64,000 nt of DNA from contig NZ_CP005986.1 of the NCBI RefSeq assembly GCF_000175575.2, forward strand, positions 379,549 to 443,548, written 5' to 3'. A program made the translations under genes and the position numbers. Positions 25,795 to 54,750 of the stretch are shown piece after piece. The stretch's first letter is position 1; the number at the start of each line of letters is the position of its first letter. The notes under the pieces were generated by a model. It saw nothing but the letters and a program-made list of their open reading frames with translations, ran no database searches and was not told the origin of the DNA. This DNA is from Acidithiobacillus caldus ATCC 51756 (GTDB lineage: Bacteria; Pseudomonadota; Gammaproteobacteria; Acidithiobacillales; Acidithiobacillaceae).

Positions 25795-27228
25795 ATGAAG
25801 CCAGGACTCGAACTCAAGCTCGGTCAGCATCTGACCATGACCCCCCAGCTGCAGCAGGCCATACGCCTGTTACAGCTGTCCACTCTCGATCTGCGCCAGG
25901 AAGTGCAGAGCATGCTGGAGAGCAATCCGCTGCTGGATGAGGATGTGGAAGAGGGGAACGAGCCTGCAGAGGCGCTGGAGCCGCGTAGCGAAACCCACGC
26001 CGACGAGCGCCAGCTGGATCTCGATGCCGACGACGCGCTACCCAACGAGCTTCCGGTGGACAGCCAGTGGGACGACATCTACGACCTCGGTAATACCCCC
26101 TCGGCGGGCCCGCCCCCCGACGACGATCTGCCCGATTTCGAGGCGCGTAACAGTCGCTCTCAGTCTCTGCAAGATTATCTGCGCTGGCAGGCGGACCTCA
26201 GCCATTTCAGCGTTCAGGAGCGCAATATCGCCGAGGTGATCATCGACGCCGTGGACGACAGCGGCTATATGGCGGCCAGCATCGAAGAGCTGGCGGCGAC
26301 GCTGGAGCTGGCGCCGGCAGACGTTACGCCGGTGCTGCGCCGGGTCCAGGACTTCGACCCCCCGGGAGTGGCGGCACGGGATCTCGGCGAGTGTCTGTCC
26401 CTACAGTTGCGCCAGTTGCCGCAGCCGGATCTGCCCGTGGTCACCCTGGCGCGGCGCATCGTCGAAGCGCACCTGGACCTTCTGGGCAAACACGATTACG
26501 GCCGTTTGGGCCAGCTCCTGAATGCCGATCCCGAAACCCTGCGCCAGGCGGTGGCGCTCATCGCGAGTCTCAACCCTAAGCCGGGCAGCACGGTGGGCGA
26601 CGATTCGGCCGAATACGTCATCCCCGATGTCATCGTGCGCTGGCGGGGTCGACAACTGCGCGTCGAACTGAATCCGGAGGCCATGCCGCGCCTGCGCATC
26701 AATCGGCATTATGCCGAGATGACCAGCGCCCGCGATGCCGCGCATCGCTACATCCAGGACCAGCTCAGTGAAGCGCGCTGGTTCATCAAGAGCTTGCAAA
26801 GTCGCCAGGAGACGGTGCTCAAGGTGGCCAGCGCCATCGTCGAACGCCAGCAGGACTTCTTCCGGCACGGGCCCGAATCCATGCGGCCCATGGTGCTGCG
26901 CGACATTGCCGAGGCAGTGGAGATGCACGAGTCCACGGTATCGCGGGTCACCAACCAGAAATACATGATCACCCCGCGCGGGCTTTTCGAGTTCAAGTAC
27001 TTCTTTTCGAGTCACGTGAATACCGATAGCGGCGGAGCAGCCTCCGCCACCGCCATTCGTGCCCTCATCGCCAAGTTCGTGCAGGCGGAGGACCCGCAGC
27101 ACCCCCTGAGCGATGCCGAGATCGCCAAGATCCTGGCAGATCAAGGGGTACAGATTGCCCGCCGTACCGTGGCCAAGTACCGGGAAGCGGCCAATATCCC
27201 TCCGGCCAGCCAGAGACGGCGGCTCTAA
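25795..27228 (+). CDS. rpoN: RNA polymerase sigma-54 factor
   Basis: Alternative sigma factor recognising GG/GC (-24/-12) promoters and needing an AAA+ activator. It has 477 residues. Region I is the N-terminal Gln/Leu-rich segment (LKLGQHLTMTPQLQQAIRLLQLSTLDL), region II the acidic stretch (about residues 48-115), and then the core-binding domain. The HTH is near SESTVSRVTNQKYM, and the C-terminal RpoN box is ARRTVAKYRE at about 456-465. A sigma-54 activator (42665-44065) and a matching promoter (46290-46305) occur in the same window. Confidence 0.98.
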   Translation: MKPGLELKLGQHLTMTPQLQQAIRLLQLSTLDLRQEVQSMLESNPLLDEDVEEGNEPAEALEPRSETHADERQLDLDADDALPNELPVDSQWDDIYDLGNTPSAGPPPDDDLPDFEARNSRSQSLQDYLRWQADLSHFSVQERNIAEVIIDAVDDSGYMAASIEELAATLELAPADVTPVLRRVQDFDPPGVAARDLGECLSLQLRQLPQPDLPVVTLARRIVEAHLDLLGKHDYGRLGQLLNADPETLRQAVALIASLNPKPGSTVGDDSAEYVIPDVIVRWRGRQLRVELNPEAMPRLRINRHYAEMTSARDAAHRYIQDQLSEARWFIKSLQSRQETVLKVASAIVERQQDFFRHGPESMRPMVLRDIAEAVEMHESTVSRVTNQKYMITPRGLFEFKYFFSSHVNTDSGGAASATAIRALIAKFVQAEDPQHPLSDAEIAKILADQGVQIARRTVAKYREAANIPPASQRRRL

Positions 27229-42664: not shown

Positions 42665-44065
42665 TCACGGCGCTTCCTCGTCGCCCTGATTCTTGAACTC
42701 CTGCGGGGTGAGTTCGTGCTTGCGCATCAGCTTGTAGAGGTCCGTGCGGTGCCGACCGGCAATGCGCGCCGCCCGCGAGATGTTGCCATCCGTTGCGCGC
42801 AGCAGGTTCTCGAGATAGCCGCGTTCAAAGGCCGCTTTGGCATCTTGCAAAGGCGGGAAGGCACTGCGTCCGCCGGCGCGACTGGGGTCGGGAATGGTTT
42901 CGGCGGCCACCCAGCCTTTTTCCGTCAGGGCTGCGGCCAGGGTGACGGCATTCTCCAGTTCGCGGACATTGCCGGGCCAGGGGCGGCAGATCAGCTTGTC
43001 CAGGGCCTCCGGGCTGAATCCTTGGATGGGGCGACGCAGGCGGGCGATCTCCCGATCGAGAAAGTGCTGGGCCAAGAGCAGGATGTCCTCGGGGCGTTCG
43101 GCAAGGCTCGGCACCCGCAGTGGAATCACGTGGAGGCGGTAGTACAGATCCTCGCGAAAGGCGCCGCTGGCCGTCAGGGCGCAGATGTCCTGGTGCGTGG
43201 CGCTGATGACGCGGATGTCCACGCGATACTCCTCCCGCGATCCCACCGGTCGCAGGGTGCCCTCTTGCAAAACGCGCAGGAGCTTGACCTGCAGGCTCAG
43301 GGGAAGATCGGCAATCTCGTCCAGAAACAGGGTGCCGCCGTCGGCGGCGCGGATGAGACCGGGGTGATCCTGGCTGGCGCCGGTGAAGGCCCCCTTGACG
43401 TGCCCGAAGAGCTCGCTCTCGGCCAGATCGGCGACGATGGCGCCGCAGTTGACGGCGACGAATGGGCCCTGGGCGCGGGGGCTGGCGGCGTGGATGGCGC
43501 GCGCCACCCGCTCCTTGCCCGAGCCGCTCTCGCCCGTGAGGAAGACGCTGGTCTGGGAGTGGGCAACGCGGGTCAGTTCATCCACGAGCTTGGCCATGAC
43601 GGGACTGCGGTGCAGGATCATCTGCCCGGCCAGATCCTTCAGCGTGGCGCGCAGGCGGCTGGTTTCGCGACTTGCCTGACGCTGGCGCAGGGCGGCGGCG
43701 ACCAGGGATTCCAGCTCCTCACTGCTGAAGGGTTTGCCAAGATAGCCAAAGGCTTGCGCACGCATGGCGGCGACGGCGTTGGGGATGCTGCCGTGGGCGG
43801 TGAGGAGGATCACCGGCAACTCGGGATCCAGCTCCTGCACCGCTTCGAGGACTTCCATGCCATCCATTTCGGGCATGCGCAGGTCGGTGATGACCAGATC
43901 CGGAAGTTCTCGCTCCATGGCCTTGACCGCCTGCACCGGCGTGCTGAAGGCCTGTACCTTATGCCCTTCACTCTCCAGCCAGAGGCCGAGAAGGCGCAGG
44001 AAATCGGCATCGTCGTCGATGATGCAGATGTGGCCAGGGTCGCTACCCAGGGACTTTCGACTCAT
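42665..44065 (-). CDS. glrR: Sigma-54-dependent response regulator (GlrR/QseF-like)
   Basis: Transcription activator of 466 residues. Receiver domain (about 10-125) with phospho-acceptor Asp61 in DLVITDLRMPEMDG and Lys in GYLGKPF. AAA+ domain (about 150-390) with Walker A GESGSGKE, GAFTGA sigma-54 contact loop and Walker B GGTLFLDEIADLP. Fis-type HTH at the C-terminus (ISRAARIAGRHRTDLYKLM). It is translationally coupled to the lipoprotein gene upstream. The kinase-lipoprotein-regulator order is that of glrK-glrG-glrR (qseE-qseG-qseF). Confidence 0.9.
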   Translation of the reverse strand: MSRKSLGSDPGHICIIDDDADFLRLLGLWLESEGHKVQAFSTPVQAVKAMERELPDLVITDLRMPEMDGMEVLEAVQELDPELPVILLTAHGSIPNAVAAMRAQAFGYLGKPFSSEELESLVAAALRQRQASRETSRLRATLKDLAGQMILHRSPVMAKLVDELTRVAHSQTSVFLTGESGSGKERVARAIHAASPRAQGPFVAVNCGAIVADLAESELFGHVKGAFTGASQDHPGLIRAADGGTLFLDEIADLPLSLQVKLLRVLQEGTLRPVGSREEYRVDIRVISATHQDICALTASGAFREDLYYRLHVIPLRVPSLAERPEDILLLAQHFLDREIARLRRPIQGFSPEALDKLICRPWPGNVRELENAVTLAAALTEKGWVAAETIPDPSRAGGRSAFPPLQDAKAAFERGYLENLLRATDGNISRAARIAGRHRTDLYKLMRKHELTPQEFKNQGDEEAP

Positions 44066-44550
44066 TGCGGGGCCTTTGTGGTGAGACTTTCCTCAGCCTG
44101 TTGATGCAAGAGCTGCTCCAGACGTTGCAGACGCTGCGCCGCCGATGCTTCCGCAGCCGATTTGGCGGGGGCCGTTGCCGGATGTGCGGCCTTCGGGAGC
44201 TCCGTCGGTAGGCAGGAAAGGCGGCGCCGTTGCAACGAACGGCTATAGGCGATGAGGTTCTGCCAGGGCTGTATCTCCTCGGCCACCTTGGGGTTTTGCG
44301 CGGCCATCTGCAACTCCCGTGCGGCGTTGTCGACATTGGTACTGGTCAGTGGCGCCTGCTGCAGGTAGCCTCTGGCCAGGGCAAAATGGATACGGGCGCA
44401 GTCGACGCCATCGGCCGCGCCGCAGTGACCAAGCTCCGTCAAAAGCTGCGCCCGGCTGGAGCTTGCGGCTGGCTCTGCGGACGGAAGTATCTGGGCACAG
44501 GCAGCCAGGGCCGGCAGGACCAGAAGCACAATGGAGCTACGGATGTTCAT
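44062..44550 (-). CDS. Outer membrane lipoprotein of the GlrK/GlrR system (GlrG/QseG-like)
   Basis: A 162-residue lipoprotein with lipobox LAAC (Cys18) after a short signal peptide. A helical domain follows (HFALARGYLQQAPLTSTNVDNAARELQMAAQNPKVAEEIQPWQNLIAYSRSL), then an Ala-rich linker and a C-terminal coiled-coil-like helix (AAQRLQRLEQLLHQQ). Between a GlrK-like kinase and a GlrR-like regulator it corresponds to QseG/GlrG, which in E. coli contacts the kinase's periplasmic domain. It overlaps both neighbours by 4 nt. Sequence similarity to QseG is weak; synteny carries the call. Confidence 0.75.
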   Translation of the reverse strand: MNIRSSIVLLVLPALAACAQILPSAEPAASSSRAQLLTELGHCGAADGVDCARIHFALARGYLQQAPLTSTNVDNAARELQMAAQNPKVAEEIQPWQNLIAYSRSLQRRRLSCLPTELPKAAHPATAPAKSAAEASAAQRLQRLEQLLHQQAEESLTTKAPQ

Positions 44551-46031
44551 GGCTGTGCCTCGCGGGGTGGCGGAGCGGGAAGCCAGACCTCGGCACTGAG
44601 CCCCCCCTGGGGATGGTTGCGGACCCGGATCTCACCGTGCTGGGCAAGTACCAGTTCGCGGGCGATGGCCAGGCCGAGGCCGGTTCCGCGCGGCAGATTA
44701 CTGCTGGCAGAGACCTGAAAGAAGCGCTCGAAGACGCGGCCCAGGAGTGCCTCGGGTATGCCCGGGCCATGATCGCGCACCTGAATCCGTACCCCTGCGC
44801 CCTCCGCCCGCGCTGCGACGCGGATGGTATCTCCGGACACACTGTACTTGTGGGCATTGCTCACCAGATTGCTGAGGATCTGGAGCAGGCGCTTGGGATC
44901 GGCGCGCACCTGCAGTCCCGCGTCCACCGCGATTTCCATTTTCTGCTGACGACGGTCGAGGAGCGGCTGCATCCGTCCGCATAACTCCTGCAGTTGCGTC
45001 GCCAGTTCCAGATCCGTCACCGCATACTCCAGACTCTGTGCCTGCAGGGCATGCATGTCCAGCATCTCTTGGATGGCGAGGTAGAGTTCCTGGACCTGCC
45101 TCGAGATGATCTCCAGCACCTCGCGCTGTGCCTGGGAGAGTTTTCCGAGGCGCTCGCTGAGCATCAGCTCGGCGCCGGAGCGAGCCGAGGCCAGTGGCGT
45201 CTTGAGCTCGTGGGACACCTGACTGAGAAAGAGGTGGCGCAGGCGCTCCTCTTCGCGCAGGCGGCTCTGCATGGTCTCGATGCTCGCCGCCAGATCGCGG
45301 ATCTCCTGGGGCCCCTCGCGCACGAGGCGTGTTGCCCGCCCGGCCCCAAGGTCCTCCAGAGCGCGGCGGATCTCTGCCAGGGGGCGCGTCAGCGCCACCG
45401 CGACCCGCCAGGGAATCCACAGGGCGAGGGCTGCCGTCACCGCCACCAGCAGGTAGAGTAGCCAGACGGCCCGCGTCCGCGCCACGGCCGCCTGCTCCGA
45501 CTCGCGGGTGAAGAGTTTCCGCAGGCTAGCGTGGAGATCGGCCAGAGCCGCATCGACGCCAGCCTGGCCGGCCTTCCCATCCTTGGTCTGGACACCGGCG
45601 CGCCCGTAGTCGGCGAGGGCCTTGCTGAGTGCCATTATCCGACTGCCCAGTTCAGGGTGCCGGTTCTGCACGATGGGCAGGAGCTCCTGTAGTTCCTGCT
45701 GTTCCCTCTGCACCAGCGCGCGAAAGGTGCGCTCGTAGCCGCTGTGGGGAAGCACTCCGGCCAGACGCCGGTAGAATTCTGCCTGTCCTTGGGTGTCCCG
45801 GATCTCCAGAAGCTGTCGTTGTACCGGCAATGCCGTATCCAGCAGCACGTCGCTGCTACTGCCCAGGCTGTGAATGGCTTGCAAGGCGAGGGCCACGAGC
45901 AGCACCACCATGAGGAAGATGAGCAGGGCAGCGGCCCGCACCCGCCGCGGAATGGACCCACCCTGGCGGCTATCCACAGGCACGCCGGCAGCCCAGCTTC
46001 CATCCGTCTCCAATCCCTTGACCACGCTCAT
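44547..46031 (-). CDS. glrK: Sensor histidine kinase (GlrK/QseE-like)
   Basis: Membrane kinase of 494 residues. TM1 is at about 33-52, a helical periplasmic domain at about 53-187, TM2 at about 189-207, then a HAMP linker (RPLAEIRRALEDLGAGRATRL). The dimerisation domain has phospho-His274 in SQVSHELKTPL. The ATPase domain has N-box ILSNLVSNAHKYS, G1 VRDHGPGIPEALLG, F-box RFFQVS and G2 GTGLGLAIAREL. The periplasmic part is all-helical, as in GlrK. The start ATG 46031 has a GGGGAG site. Confidence 0.9.
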   Translation of the reverse strand: MSVVKGLETDGSWAAGVPVDSRQGGSIPRRVRAAALLIFLMVVLLVALALQAIHSLGSSSDVLLDTALPVQRQLLEIRDTQGQAEFYRRLAGVLPHSGYERTFRALVQREQQELQELLPIVQNRHPELGSRIMALSKALADYGRAGVQTKDGKAGQAGVDAALADLHASLRKLFTRESEQAAVARTRAVWLLYLLVAVTAALALWIPWRVAVALTRPLAEIRRALEDLGAGRATRLVREGPQEIRDLAASIETMQSRLREEERLRHLFLSQVSHELKTPLASARSGAELMLSERLGKLSQAQREVLEIISRQVQELYLAIQEMLDMHALQAQSLEYAVTDLELATQLQELCGRMQPLLDRRQQKMEIAVDAGLQVRADPKRLLQILSNLVSNAHKYSVSGDTIRVAARAEGAGVRIQVRDHGPGIPEALLGRVFERFFQVSASSNLPRGTGLGLAIARELVLAQHGEIRVRNHPQGGLSAEVWLPAPPPREAQP

Positions 46032-46195
46032 GATTGCACTCCCCGTAGCGGTTCGGGGCCTCCTTGATCCCGGCGAGCAGAATGTCAGTGTACGGGAGCG
46101 CCGATCTTTCGCCCACTGTAGTCATGTCGCTACGGCCGCCAAAGCCACGCTGGCGCGGGTGCTCTGACTCGCCCGTGCGCGGGTACGGGCCAAAA

Positions 46196-46213
46196 TGTCG
46201 GTAATCGTCTACA
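46196..46213 (+). promoter_or_regulatory. Candidate GlrR-type binding site
   Basis: TGTC (46196-46199), 10 nt, TACA (46210-46213). E. coli GlrR binds TGTC-N10-GACA; this matches 7 of 8 positions. It is centred about 110 nt upstream of the predicted start of the sigma-54 promoter at 46290, a normal distance for an activator of this class. Confidence 0.35.
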
Positions 46214-46289
46214 GGCGAAGCGCTGGGGCTGGGGCTTGGTCCGCCGCCGCCGCCGTCGGATGCGTCGCCAGGGCCTGTCGTTTCTGGGC

Positions 46290-46305
46290 TGGCACGAACC
46301 CTGCT
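46290..46305 (+). promoter_or_regulatory. Near-consensus sigma-54 promoter (-24/-12)
   Basis: The sequence TGGCACGAACCCTGCT matches the sigma-54 consensus TGGCACG-N4-TTGCW at all fixed positions except one (C for T at the first T of TTGC), with exact GG-N10-GC spacing. Transcription would start near 46316 and give a 54-nt AT-rich leader ending in an AAAGGAG ribosome site before the gene at 46370. It is divergent from the glrK-glrG-glrR operon. Confidence 0.75.
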
Positions 46306-46369
46306 TCAATGACTTGCAAAACATCAGAAAAAGTAAATTTGCTAATGGAATGACGGTAAAGGAGTCACG

Positions 46370-46933
46370 ATGCAGCTACTGTCTTTGTCCCCGAGTCGAC
46401 CACGCCACCAGCACCGTCAGGCTTTGTGGGATGCCGCGAGTCATGAGGCCTTGATCCTAGATTTTACCAGCGCTGCCCTGGAGGGCGATCTGGATCAGCT
46501 CCTGGACCGTGACCCGCAGTTGCGGCCCCGATATATCCTGGTCAGCCACAGCGATCCGGACCTCAATGCCGCCGCCGAGCGCTTGGCCCTACTCCTGCCC
46601 GACGCCCGTCTGCTCTTGCCGAGCGAGGAGAACTGGGACCAGAGCGCGGTGGGACCACTGTCCTTGGGTCGTCAACAACTGCACCTCATTCGCCTGGGAA
46701 ATGGCCATTGGGGCGTGCATGCCCCGGGACACTGCCTGTGTGCCGCGGTCTGGGACCAGCACGGTCGCTGGCAAGGGGATGAACTGGGCTATCGGCGCGT
46801 CCGGCACCTGCCGACAACAACCCGGCTCTACAGCGCCGGATTGCCCGACGGCGGCCTTGCGGTAGCGCGCTGGCAGGCCGCGCGCGGTCAGGTGCTGACA
46901 CTTCCGCGCCCGCGACACCATCGCGCTGCCTGA
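46370..46933 (+). CDS. Degenerate metallo-beta-lactamase-like protein, unknown function
   Basis: A 187-residue cytoplasmic protein. The segment ALILDFTSAALEGDLDQLLDRDPQLRPRYILVSHSDPD followed by AAAERLALLLPDARLLLPSEE resembles the start of an MBL fold, and VHAPGHCLCAAVWDQHG (116-132) resembles the third metal-ligand strand (HxPGHxxG). The HxHxDH zinc motif is reduced to HSDPDL, so canonical zinc hydrolysis is unlikely. It sits behind a strong sigma-54 promoter and an AAAGGAG site. The 3' end is only 5 nt from convergent recN. Fold assignment is tentative; it could be an unrelated alpha/beta protein. Confidence 0.65.
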   Translation: MQLLSLSPSRPRHQHRQALWDAASHEALILDFTSAALEGDLDQLLDRDPQLRPRYILVSHSDPDLNAAAERLALLLPDARLLLPSEENWDQSAVGPLSLGRQQLHLIRLGNGHWGVHAPGHCLCAAVWDQHGRWQGDELGYRRVRHLPTTTRLYSAGLPDGGLAVARWQAARGQVLTLPRPRHHRAA

Positions 46934-46938
46934 GGGCT

Positions 46939-48621
46939 TCAGGTTTTGTTCGCCTCGTCCAGAAGCCGCTGGGCGGCACGGTGGATACTGTCGTCCAGTT
47001 CGATCCCGCCGAGCATGCGCGCTACCTCGTCCCGTCGTCCCTCGGTATCGAGTACCCGAATGCGGCTGTGGGTCGCCTCGCCCGTCACCACTTTTTCCAC
47101 CAGGAGTTGGTGGTGCGCCTGGGCTGCCACCTGTGGCAAGTGCGTCACGCACAACACCTGCTGCGCCTTGCCCAGGCGGCGTAGCAGGCGACCGATGCGC
47201 TCGGCCACCGCTCCCCCTACGCCGACGTCCACTTCGTCGAAGATCAGGGTATCGACCTGCTCTGGTTGTGCCAGGATGACCTGCAGCGCAAGGCCGATAC
47301 GGGCGAGTTCACCACCAGAGGCAACCCTGGCCAGTGCCTGCAGGGGATGTCCGGGATTGGCGCTGAAGTGCAGCTCCACCTGATCCCAGCCCGTGCTTTG
47401 CCAGTGACGGGGATCGTCCGGGTAGCTTTGCACGTCCACTTTCACCGTCGCATGGGGCATGCCGAGATCCCGTATTTCGGCGGCGATGGCCTGTGCCAAT
47501 CGGGGTGCCGCTACCCTGCGGGCCGTGCTGACGCCCTTGGCCTGCTCCCGGTAGGATGCTTCGCTCTGGTCGGCCTCTGCTTGCAGACGATGGAGGCGCT
47601 CGCCATCCTGCTCTGCGTCACCCAGTTCAGCGCGTAGTTCCTCCAAGAGGGACAGCAGTCCCGCCATATCCCGCTGATGCTTGCGCTGCAGGTCCTGCAG
47701 TACCTGAAGGCGATGGCCGATCTGTTCCAGGCGCGCGGGGTCCGCTTCCAGATGCTCATGGTAGGCGCGCAGAGCGTGACAGGCCTCTTGAACCTGGATT
47801 TCTGCGCTGTCGACGAGGGCCGCGCTATCGGCGAGGGCGGTATCCTTCTGGCAAGCACCTGCCAGGGCGCGCTGCGCCTCACCCAGCAGCCCAAGGGCAC
47901 CACCCTCGTCCTCCAGGCAAGACAGGGACGTGGCGACGGCCTCACGAAGCTGTTCCACGGCCCCCAGGCGACGGGCTTCGCTGGACAATTCCTCCCACTC
48001 ACCCGCGCGCAGACCGACACGCTCCAATTCCTCCAGCACGAAGCGGCGCCATTCCCGTTCTGCGCCGCTGCGTTCGCGTTCGCTGCGGTACTGCTCAAGG
48101 GCGGCTTGAGCGGCGCGCCAGCGTTGTTGGCGACGTGCCAGCTCGTCCAGTTCCGCCTCCAGATGGGCAAAACGATCCAAAAGAGCGCGCTGGCGTTCTG
48201 GACGCAACAAACCTTGCTGGGCGTTCTGGCCGAGCAGCTCTATCAGGTACTCCCCCAACTCGCGTAGCTGATTGCCAGCAACCTGCCGACCATTGATGAA
48301 GGCTCGGCTGCGCCCTTGTCGCGGGATGAGACGACGGACGATGCAGCCCTCGCCATCGTCGTCGTCGAGTCCCTGATCGCGCAGCCATTGACGGGCAGGT
48401 GCAGCGTCCGTCAGGCTGAAACTCGCGGCAATCTCCGCCTGTTCGGCGCCGAAACGGACCAGGTCCGCACTGGCCTTGTCGCCGAGGATCTGGGCAATGG
48501 CATCGACGACAATGGACTTGCCCGCGCCCGTCTCGCCCGTCACCACGGTCATGCCCGGGGCGAGTTCCAGTTCCAGAGCCTCGATCAAGGCAAAATTACG
48601 GATTTCCAGACGGGTCAGCAT
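46939..48621 (-). CDS. recN: DNA repair protein RecN
   Basis: SMC-like ATPase of double-strand break repair, 560 residues. Walker A GETGAGKSIVVDAIAQILG is at the N-terminus. Long coiled coils of about 150-340 flank the hinge-like centre, and the C-terminal ABC signature VASGGELARIGLALQVIL and Walker B DTLIFDEVDVGVGG are intact. Its 5' end overlaps the 3' end of nadK by 7 nt, the common nadK-recN pairing. Confidence 0.96.
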   Translation of the reverse strand: MLTRLEIRNFALIEALELELAPGMTVVTGETGAGKSIVVDAIAQILGDKASADLVRFGAEQAEIAASFSLTDAAPARQWLRDQGLDDDDGEGCIVRRLIPRQGRSRAFINGRQVAGNQLRELGEYLIELLGQNAQQGLLRPERQRALLDRFAHLEAELDELARRQQRWRAAQAALEQYRSERERSGAEREWRRFVLEELERVGLRAGEWEELSSEARRLGAVEQLREAVATSLSCLEDEGGALGLLGEAQRALAGACQKDTALADSAALVDSAEIQVQEACHALRAYHEHLEADPARLEQIGHRLQVLQDLQRKHQRDMAGLLSLLEELRAELGDAEQDGERLHRLQAEADQSEASYREQAKGVSTARRVAAPRLAQAIAAEIRDLGMPHATVKVDVQSYPDDPRHWQSTGWDQVELHFSANPGHPLQALARVASGGELARIGLALQVILAQPEQVDTLIFDEVDVGVGGAVAERIGRLLRRLGKAQQVLCVTHLPQVAAQAHHQLLVEKVVTGEATHSRIRVLDTEGRRDEVARMLGGIELDDSIHRAAQRLLDEANKT

Positions 48622-54342: not shown

Positions 54343-54750
54343 GTTGTCCCTGTCTCCCGACAAGGACGATTCAGCAGGGACGCGGATTTTCGTGGATCGC
54401 TGCGGTGCGCGTCGCCGGAAGGTGACGCCTCCGCTGGTCAGCCCCAGGCGGCAGGGAAACCGGGCGAAAAGCTTACAAGGAAATGCATAGGCCGGAATAC
54501 CTTCCCTTTTTTGATGAGGCGCGGCCAATCCCAGTGCCCAGCTGCGCAGGTCGCGGGCCCGAATCCCTGGTCCTTGGGCCACGGGCCGATACCAAAAACC
54601 GACAACATGGTGCTTTCCGTGGCCGCCAAAAACGCTCCAACCCCAGGATGGACGGGCCTTGGATACCTTGGCATGGCTTATGCTTCAGAGCCGGTGCCGC
54701 CCGTGCGGCCCGCATTTGCGGTGGACCATCACTTATTTGGAGAGCTTTTT
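54343..54750. other. 408-nt gap without a recognisable gene
   Basis: No convincing coding region on either strand. Near the left end GTCCCTG (54346-54352) and CAGGGAC (54375-54381) form a 7-bp inverted repeat that could end the yggX transcript, but no T run follows. The right part must hold the promoter of the next gene; I see only weak hexamers (TTGGAT at 54658-54663, TATGCT 14 nt downstream). A small RNA cannot be excluded. Confidence 0.4.

Follow-up and report, generated by a model that had tools for sequence, protein, structure and literature searches.

Most of what is known about the GlrK-GlrR system comes from enteric bacteria, where it activates glmY and rpoE. In Escherichia coli the glmY gene adjoins the qseEGF operon, and the QseF activator recognizes the consensus TGTN12ACA (PMC6075780). 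In Salmonella, GlrR has been tied to heat and pH tolerance, and the available text of that report holds no mention of a link between GlrR and cellulose (PMC11594007). The qseEGF genes have been reported in Acidithiobacillia (PMC12691602), two QseEF pairs have been described in most Acidithiobacillus strains (PMC9040811), and separate GlrR/GlrK and GlrR_2/QseE groups are listed in the accessible part of PMC12194929. This part gives sites or circuits for HupR, NtrC, NtrX and TspR and none for GlrR. In the literature surveyed, which was mainly open-access and included the available portions of PMC12194929, PMC9040811, PMC12691602 and PMC11594007, no GlrR regulon or target list for Acidithiobacillaceae was found. 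Since qseEGF, the two QseEF pairs and other sigma-54 circuits are already in print while GlrR targets were not found there, the locus described here is presented as a known kind of system with new predicted outputs.

The stretch of DNA analyzed (the window) comprises 64,000 nucleotides of Acidithiobacillus caldus (G000:C1:379549-443548, from a genome of 2,987,045 bases in four contigs). It was compared with a family sample of 29 genomes, the own genome included, and with a class sample of 274 genomes. Judging from the sequence comparisons, the control region of a divergent GlrK-GlrG-GlrR operon is likely to drive sigma-54 transcription of a gene for a 187-aa protein, and this gene is likely to be a lineage-specific member of a small GlrR regulon.

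Organization of the locus

The gene for the 187-aa protein sits on the plus strand between recN and the kinase gene, both of which are on the minus strand (Table 1). The original prediction described a divergent kinase-lipoprotein-activator operon with a GlrR-like sigma-54 activator and an rpoN gene in the same window. Analysis of the window confirmed both descriptions: the kinase, the lipoprotein-like gene and the REC-AAA+-HTH activator follow the QseEGF gene order in one operon, and rpoN, as well as a gene for RapZ, is encoded in the window. The middle gene product gave no Pfam or NCBIfam match, and the gene is called glrG/qseG-like because it is placed between kinase and regulator. The activator is named GlrR-like because its best NCBIfam model, GlrR PRK15115, scored 485.5 bits and thus remained under the curated cut-off of 763. 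An orthologue of this activator was found in 28 of the 29 family genomes (69-94% identical); in the remaining one, G006 (71% complete), only a paralogue was detected. No Rfam family, GlmY/GlmZ included, reached the gathering score in the window, RapZ nonetheless being encoded there, and a small-RNA target as in E. coli was rejected on these grounds.

Table 1 Features of the window discussed in the text
Feature	Position	Strand	Remarks
rpoN (sigma-54)	25795..27228	+	three Pfam domains
glrR/qseF-like sigma-54 activator	42665..44065	-	REC, AAA+, Fis HTH
glrG/qseG-like gene	44062..44550	-	N terminus MNIRSSIVLLVLPALAACA, a lipobox by eye
glrK/qseE-like sensor histidine kinase	44547..46031	-	HAMP, HisKA, HATPase_c domains
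Palindrome TGTAGTCATGTCGCTACG (TGT-N12-ACG), main candidate GlrR site	46117..46134	+	between glrK and divergent gene
Second candidate GlrR site TGTCGGTAATCGTCTACA (reverse TGTAGACGATTACCGACA)	46196..46213	+	76 bp before -24/-12 box
Sigma-54 -24/-12 box TGGCACGAACCCTGCT of 187-aa gene	46290..46305	+	one base off consensus; conserved in sister species
Candidate target gene 'mblX' (187 aa)	46370..46933	+	ORF; predicted metallo-beta-lactamase fold, persulfide dioxygenase/glyoxalase II type; metal site eroding in family
recN	46939-48621	-

The sigma-54 box before the 187-aa gene

The near-consensus GG-N10-GC box of the original prediction was found as TGGCACGAACCCTGCT, close before the gene, with its GG-N10-GC in TGGCAC/TTGCW context. 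It scored 9.5 of 10, and no other site in the window reaches that score; in first-order Markov copies of the window, sites scoring at least as high occur at a rate of 0.35 per 64 kb, both strands counted. Across the own genome, 35 places fit TGGCAYN5YTGCW versus 9 for the reversed pattern. Taken alone, such a -24/-12 match is weak evidence and could be due to chance. The spacer between the 46196 site and the box (46214-46289) is 76% GC. A second, weaker sigma-54-like site, TGGCATGGCTTATGCT at 54669-54684 on the plus strand, scored 9.0, and 2.45 sites of at least that score are expected by chance.

Conservation of the box in relatives had been proposed as the test of its significance, and the family comparison came out in its favor. 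The region upstream of glrK could be assessed in 26 of the 29 family genomes, the others being G006 (no glr locus fetched), G025 and G028 (contigs end in the region). All eight regions with the gene between recN and glrK, the own one included, have a correctly oriented box that scores 9 of 10 or more, versus none of the 18 regions without the gene (best score 8.0), the compared regions being unequal in length (281-401 bases for the 8 and 174-417 bases for the 18). In the regions with the gene, the box score was matched by 0-1 of 200 shuffles, a control which, as in the palindrome and arsR counts, preserves single-base composition only. An additional 9.0 match is present on the opposite strand in G009.

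The sister species (G001) keeps the box within otherwise strongly diverged DNA. G003 has the gene, together with its upstream region, relocated to another contig, and this copy has a 10/10 box and a 10/10 palindrome. The vacated recN-glrK spot in G003 consists of recognizably homologous DNA in which the palindrome is kept (9/10) and the -12 element has decayed (box 8/10). It is because of this conservation, in the eight regions against the 18, in the sister species and in the G003 pair, that the box is judged real. Several g4 genomes also have an inverted repeat just downstream of the -12 element, such as ATTAGAATA-N6-TATTCTAAT in G015, and this repeat is partly retained in the window (46300-46350) as ATCAGAA..CTAAT, further from the box.

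Candidate activator palindromes

The original prediction placed a TGTC-N10-TACA activator site at 46196-46213, and the sequence is present there. The palindrome at 46117-46134, which is of the TGTAG-N8-CTACG type, was absent from that prediction. Both are close to the QseF consensus, the first reading TGT-N12-ACA and the second TGT-N12-ACG (one letter off). Conservation of the 46196-46213 site held only in part: GTCGGTA-TCGTCTACAG is kept in the sister species, where the TGTC half reads CGTC, and the CTACAG half is kept in G003, while no counterpart was seen in the six g4 sequences. The altered half in the sister species and the missing g4 counterparts led us to demote this site from the place of main activator site.

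The main activator site is probably the palindrome at 46117-46134, which is stronger and more widely conserved. A TGTAG-N8-CTAC palindrome at 8 or 9 of 9 letters precedes glrK in 23 of the 26 regions, whether the 187-aa gene is present or not. It is not universal, because it is poor in G013 (7/9) and G019 (6/9) despite good arsR sites and is broken in G023 (7/9) too. The distance from the main palindrome to the box is 155 bp in the window and 166 in G003, compared with 53-80 in the family pattern matches described below.

Five distinct places in the own genome match TGTAGN8CTAC exactly, and three of the five precede sigma-54 boxes, namely those of the 187-aa gene, arsR and a lipoprotein gene. 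The other two do not fit, one being within an ORF (1297924) and one downstream of a box (2119759). The latter palindrome (G000:C1:2119759) is located ~170 bp downstream of a sigma-54-like box at 2119932, and this box is followed by a 170-aa ORF whose N terminus is signal-like. Of the 35 own sigma-54-like sites, 30 were scored, and among these a palindrome of at least 9/10 lies 30-220 bp upstream only at the 187-aa gene and at arsR.

A family-wide set of paired sites

The 187-aa gene of the own genome is not itself among the matches to the pattern GTAGN8CTAC-N50-80-TGGCAN7TGC, which occurs 35 times in 25 of the 29 family genomes, while the reversed control gave 0. The 274 class genomes gave 7 matches; the own genome accounts for 2 of these and the 273 others for 5. 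The reversed control gave 26 matches (our own count) in the same 274 genomes, and by that yardstick ~3 would be expected per 29 genomes. The 35 family matches are found before genes for an ArsR-family regulator (21), a Gly-zipper lipoprotein (4, one inferred solely from a near-identical site), the 187-aa protein (3) and cellulose synthase (3; in G008 a GalU-like nucleotidyltransferase gene comes first). The remainder precede a DUF4214 gene with a large glycosyltransferase ORF behind it (2, with Pfam run on one), a flagellin gene (1, L133) and no clear gene (1, L127).

The arsR gene has orthologues (E<1e-29) in 28 of the 29 genomes, and the exception, G010, is also without the pattern. Upstream of arsR, a palindrome of at least 9/10 is present in 28 of 28 orthologues and a box of at least 8.5/10 in 27 of 28 (7.5 in G015), although 21 of these 28 upstream regions are already among the pattern matches. 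The two elements are 63-79 bp apart before arsR, and ~180 bp apart in G003 and G006. The best NCBIfam model for the ArsR protein is the general ArsR/SmtB model, followed by the sulfite-sensing BigR model (54.5 bits, cut-off 155).

The Gly-zipper lipoprotein site pair differs by hardly a letter among three genomes from two genera (L124 at G000:C1:184969, L126 in G004 and G011:C58:32951, with the gene read in two of the three), which suggests that it was recently transferred. Cellulose synthase operons (GT2 + PilZ) with a palindrome and a sigma-54 box were found at L141 (G026), L142 (G008) and L145 (G005). The site pair is ~250 bp before bcsA in G026 and 315 bp before it in G005, and in G008 it stands before the GalU-like gene ahead of bcsA. 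L112, ~250 bp before cellulose synthase, is counted with the cellulose synthase matches above. The cellulose operon sites would join GlrR to c-di-GMP-dependent matrix production.

A GlrR-type output unlike that of E. coli is well supported by these comparisons, because the pairing of palindrome and sigma-54 box recurs before specific genes in the family. The claim of an undescribed GlrK-GlrR output, with which the original prediction had ended, is thus backed by both the conservation of the box and the pairing across the family.

The 187-aa protein

Strong matches to the 187-aa protein (E<1e-39) are present in 9 of the 29 family genomes. Among the best 12 candidates per genome, a profile match (E<=1e-6) was obtained in one of the 274 class genomes, the own one. 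Weak matches (E 4e-5 to 0.006) in seven g2 genomes (G012, G016, G018, G020, G022, G025 and G027) and at G004:C1:910542 were not counted as members. The protein matched no Pfam family at the cut-off (best E 0.11), and the best Pfam value for any member of the protein family was E 0.053, to an unrelated family. A nine-member profile remained below significance against persulfide dioxygenases (PDB 4ysb E 0.089, 4chl 0.5).

The structure model, calculated from 4 sequences, is of low confidence (pLDDT 58.5, pTM 0.59), and the predicted structure has a metallo-beta-lactamase fold. Foldseek matched this low-confidence model to glyoxalase II 8ewo (prob 1.00, E 2.2e-7, TMq 0.62), and VIA matched it to ETHE1 4ysb (Z 12.0, rmsd 4.5, 170 aligned). 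The 187-aa protein is predicted to be a short persulfide dioxygenase/glyoxalase II relative. At 187 aa it is shorter than the dioxygenase chains 4ysb, 4chl and 2gcu, which are single-domain and have 233-245 aa. The iron ligands of AcPDO are H57, H113 and D130 (PMC6060420), to which H60, H121 and D137 correspond by motif and spacing, without significant alignment. These 2-His-1-Asp positions are complete in the window protein, the sister species and G003, and incomplete in the other 6 of 9 sequences. H121 is lost in those 6, with W or Y in its place in all five g4 sequences and in the plasmid paralogue; three of the nine have R instead of H60, and D137, within a G-W-GD motif, is kept in 9 of 9. 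Other residues of HxHxDH are lost. The description 'degenerate MBL-like' in the original prediction agrees with the predicted fold and needs amendment in one respect, as the three residues that correspond to the iron ligands are still present in A. caldus.

The plasmid paralogue (L021, G000:C2:37067-37627, 41-44% identical) is encoded on a 172-kb replicon, near genes for an NtrC-like activator, glutamine synthetase and an ammonium transporter (Pfam). A truncated copy (L022, G000:C1:1728222-1728547) is found in a very similar chromosomal cluster. No such promoter was found before the plasmid paralogue, where the best box scored 8.0 and the palindrome 6. The NtrC-like gene, glnA and the ammonium transporter gene in its vicinity had pointed to NtrC control, an idea that was dropped given the lack of box and palindrome.

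Discussion

In the proposed mechanism, GlrK would sense the envelope as it does in E. coli and, together with the lipoprotein GlrG, would phosphorylate GlrR. GlrR would then bind TGT-N12-AC(A/G) palindromes at 46117-46134 and, in the A. caldus lineage, at 46196-46213, and would drive RNA polymerase-sigma-54 at 46290-46305 to give a transcript that starts at about 46315 and encodes the 187-aa protein. The 46117-46134 palindrome is so placed that it may touch the promoter of glrK itself, which would amount to autoregulation. The ArsR-family regulator would be the core member of the regulon, joined by the Gly-zipper lipoprotein and, in some species, probably by the cellulose-synthase and glycosyltransferase operons. 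The analysis established sequence conservation, co-occurrence, motif pairing and a predicted fold; the phosphorylation and DNA binding of GlrR, the rpoN-dependent transcription and the protein function are inferred.

It is highly improbable that the -24/-12 match arose by chance in GC-rich DNA and that the gene is read from an unrecognized sigma-70 promoter. The chance expectation of 0.35 such boxes per 64 kb speaks for this reading. Against it, no sigma-70-like promoter was found in 46000-46400, and the box is conserved in diverged DNA, accompanies the gene in all 8 regions that have it, is missing from the 18 that do not, and has decayed where the gene is gone in G003. We discarded the chance reading on this conservation and on the 35 pattern matches in the family against 5 in the 273 other class genomes. 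The sigma-54 promoter may also be real and be driven by another enhancer-binding protein, in particular by the second GlrR-like activator (G000:C1:297624-298973), with the glrK palindrome serving only glrK. This activator counts against the window GlrR, as it is present in 27 of 29 genomes (E<=1e-140) and could share the sites or own them. It is 86-98% identical, compared with 69-94% in 28 genomes for the less conserved window GlrR, and the incomplete G006 genome has the paralogue with box and palindrome before arsR and no detected window-GlrR orthologue. The two QseEF pairs and the two GlrR groups in the literature cited above are also in keeping with a second activator. We nevertheless regard control by this activator as unlikely, since 23 of the 26 regions have a palindrome of the same type ahead of glrK, whether or not they carry the target gene, which is what one would expect if GlrR regulated its own operon from this site, and since G013 and G025, in which no paralogue was detected, keep palindrome and box before arsR.

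A further alternative concerns the product and is compatible with the sigma-54 promoter: the 187-aa protein could be an active mono-iron persulfide dioxygenase, the circuit then being a sulfur-stress rather than an envelope switch. The match of its three residues to the AcPDO ligands (PMC6060420) and the BigR model as next best for the co-regulated ArsR protein speak for such an enzyme, whereas the replacement of H121 and H60 in relatives, the short chain, the loss of the other HxHxDH residues and the lack of a significant family match in Pfam or PDB profiles make it rather doubtful. We think instead that the protein is a sensor or accessory protein in envelope/sulfur stress and not a full-rate enzyme, which is the weakest step of the argument.

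More broadly, a tentative but quite possible reading is that GlrK-GlrG-GlrR has been rewired in Acidithiobacillaceae, so that in some members of the family a gene encoding a metallo-beta-lactamase-fold protein occupies the slot of glmY. Envelope sensing would then be coupled to a BigR-like ArsR regulator and a Gly-zipper lipoprotein, and in several species also to cellulose and other matrix polysaccharides. The result would be a switch for surface attachment or biofilm formation, one branch of which concerns sulfur chemistry. The site pair and the family-wide target list would provide these important bioleaching bacteria with a testable envelope/attachment regulon, and the 187-aa protein family, which is without known function, would gain a clear expression context.

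Comparison with described systems places the 187-aa protein beside ETHE1 and glyoxalase II in predicted fold and, in the window protein, the sister species and G003, in the three putative iron-ligand positions; it differs in its shorter chain, in lacking the second histidine in 6 of 9 sequences and in having no significant Pfam match. The predicted promoter follows the arrangement of the TspS/TspR, NtrB/NtrC and HupR circuits of Acidithiobacillia, with an activator, a conserved upstream motif and a -24/-12 box (PMC12194929). The closest likeness is to the E. coli QseE-QseG-QseF system with its glmY and rpoE targets. Both have a kinase-lipoprotein-activator operon, a sigma-54 target gene (predicted in A. 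caldus) right beside that operon, and TGT-N12-ACA-like activator sites (PMC6075780). In E. coli, however, the adjacent target is the sRNA gene glmY upstream of the operon, whereas in A. caldus it would be a divergent protein gene, and the other predicted targets in the A. caldus family are arsR, the lipoprotein gene and polysaccharide operons.
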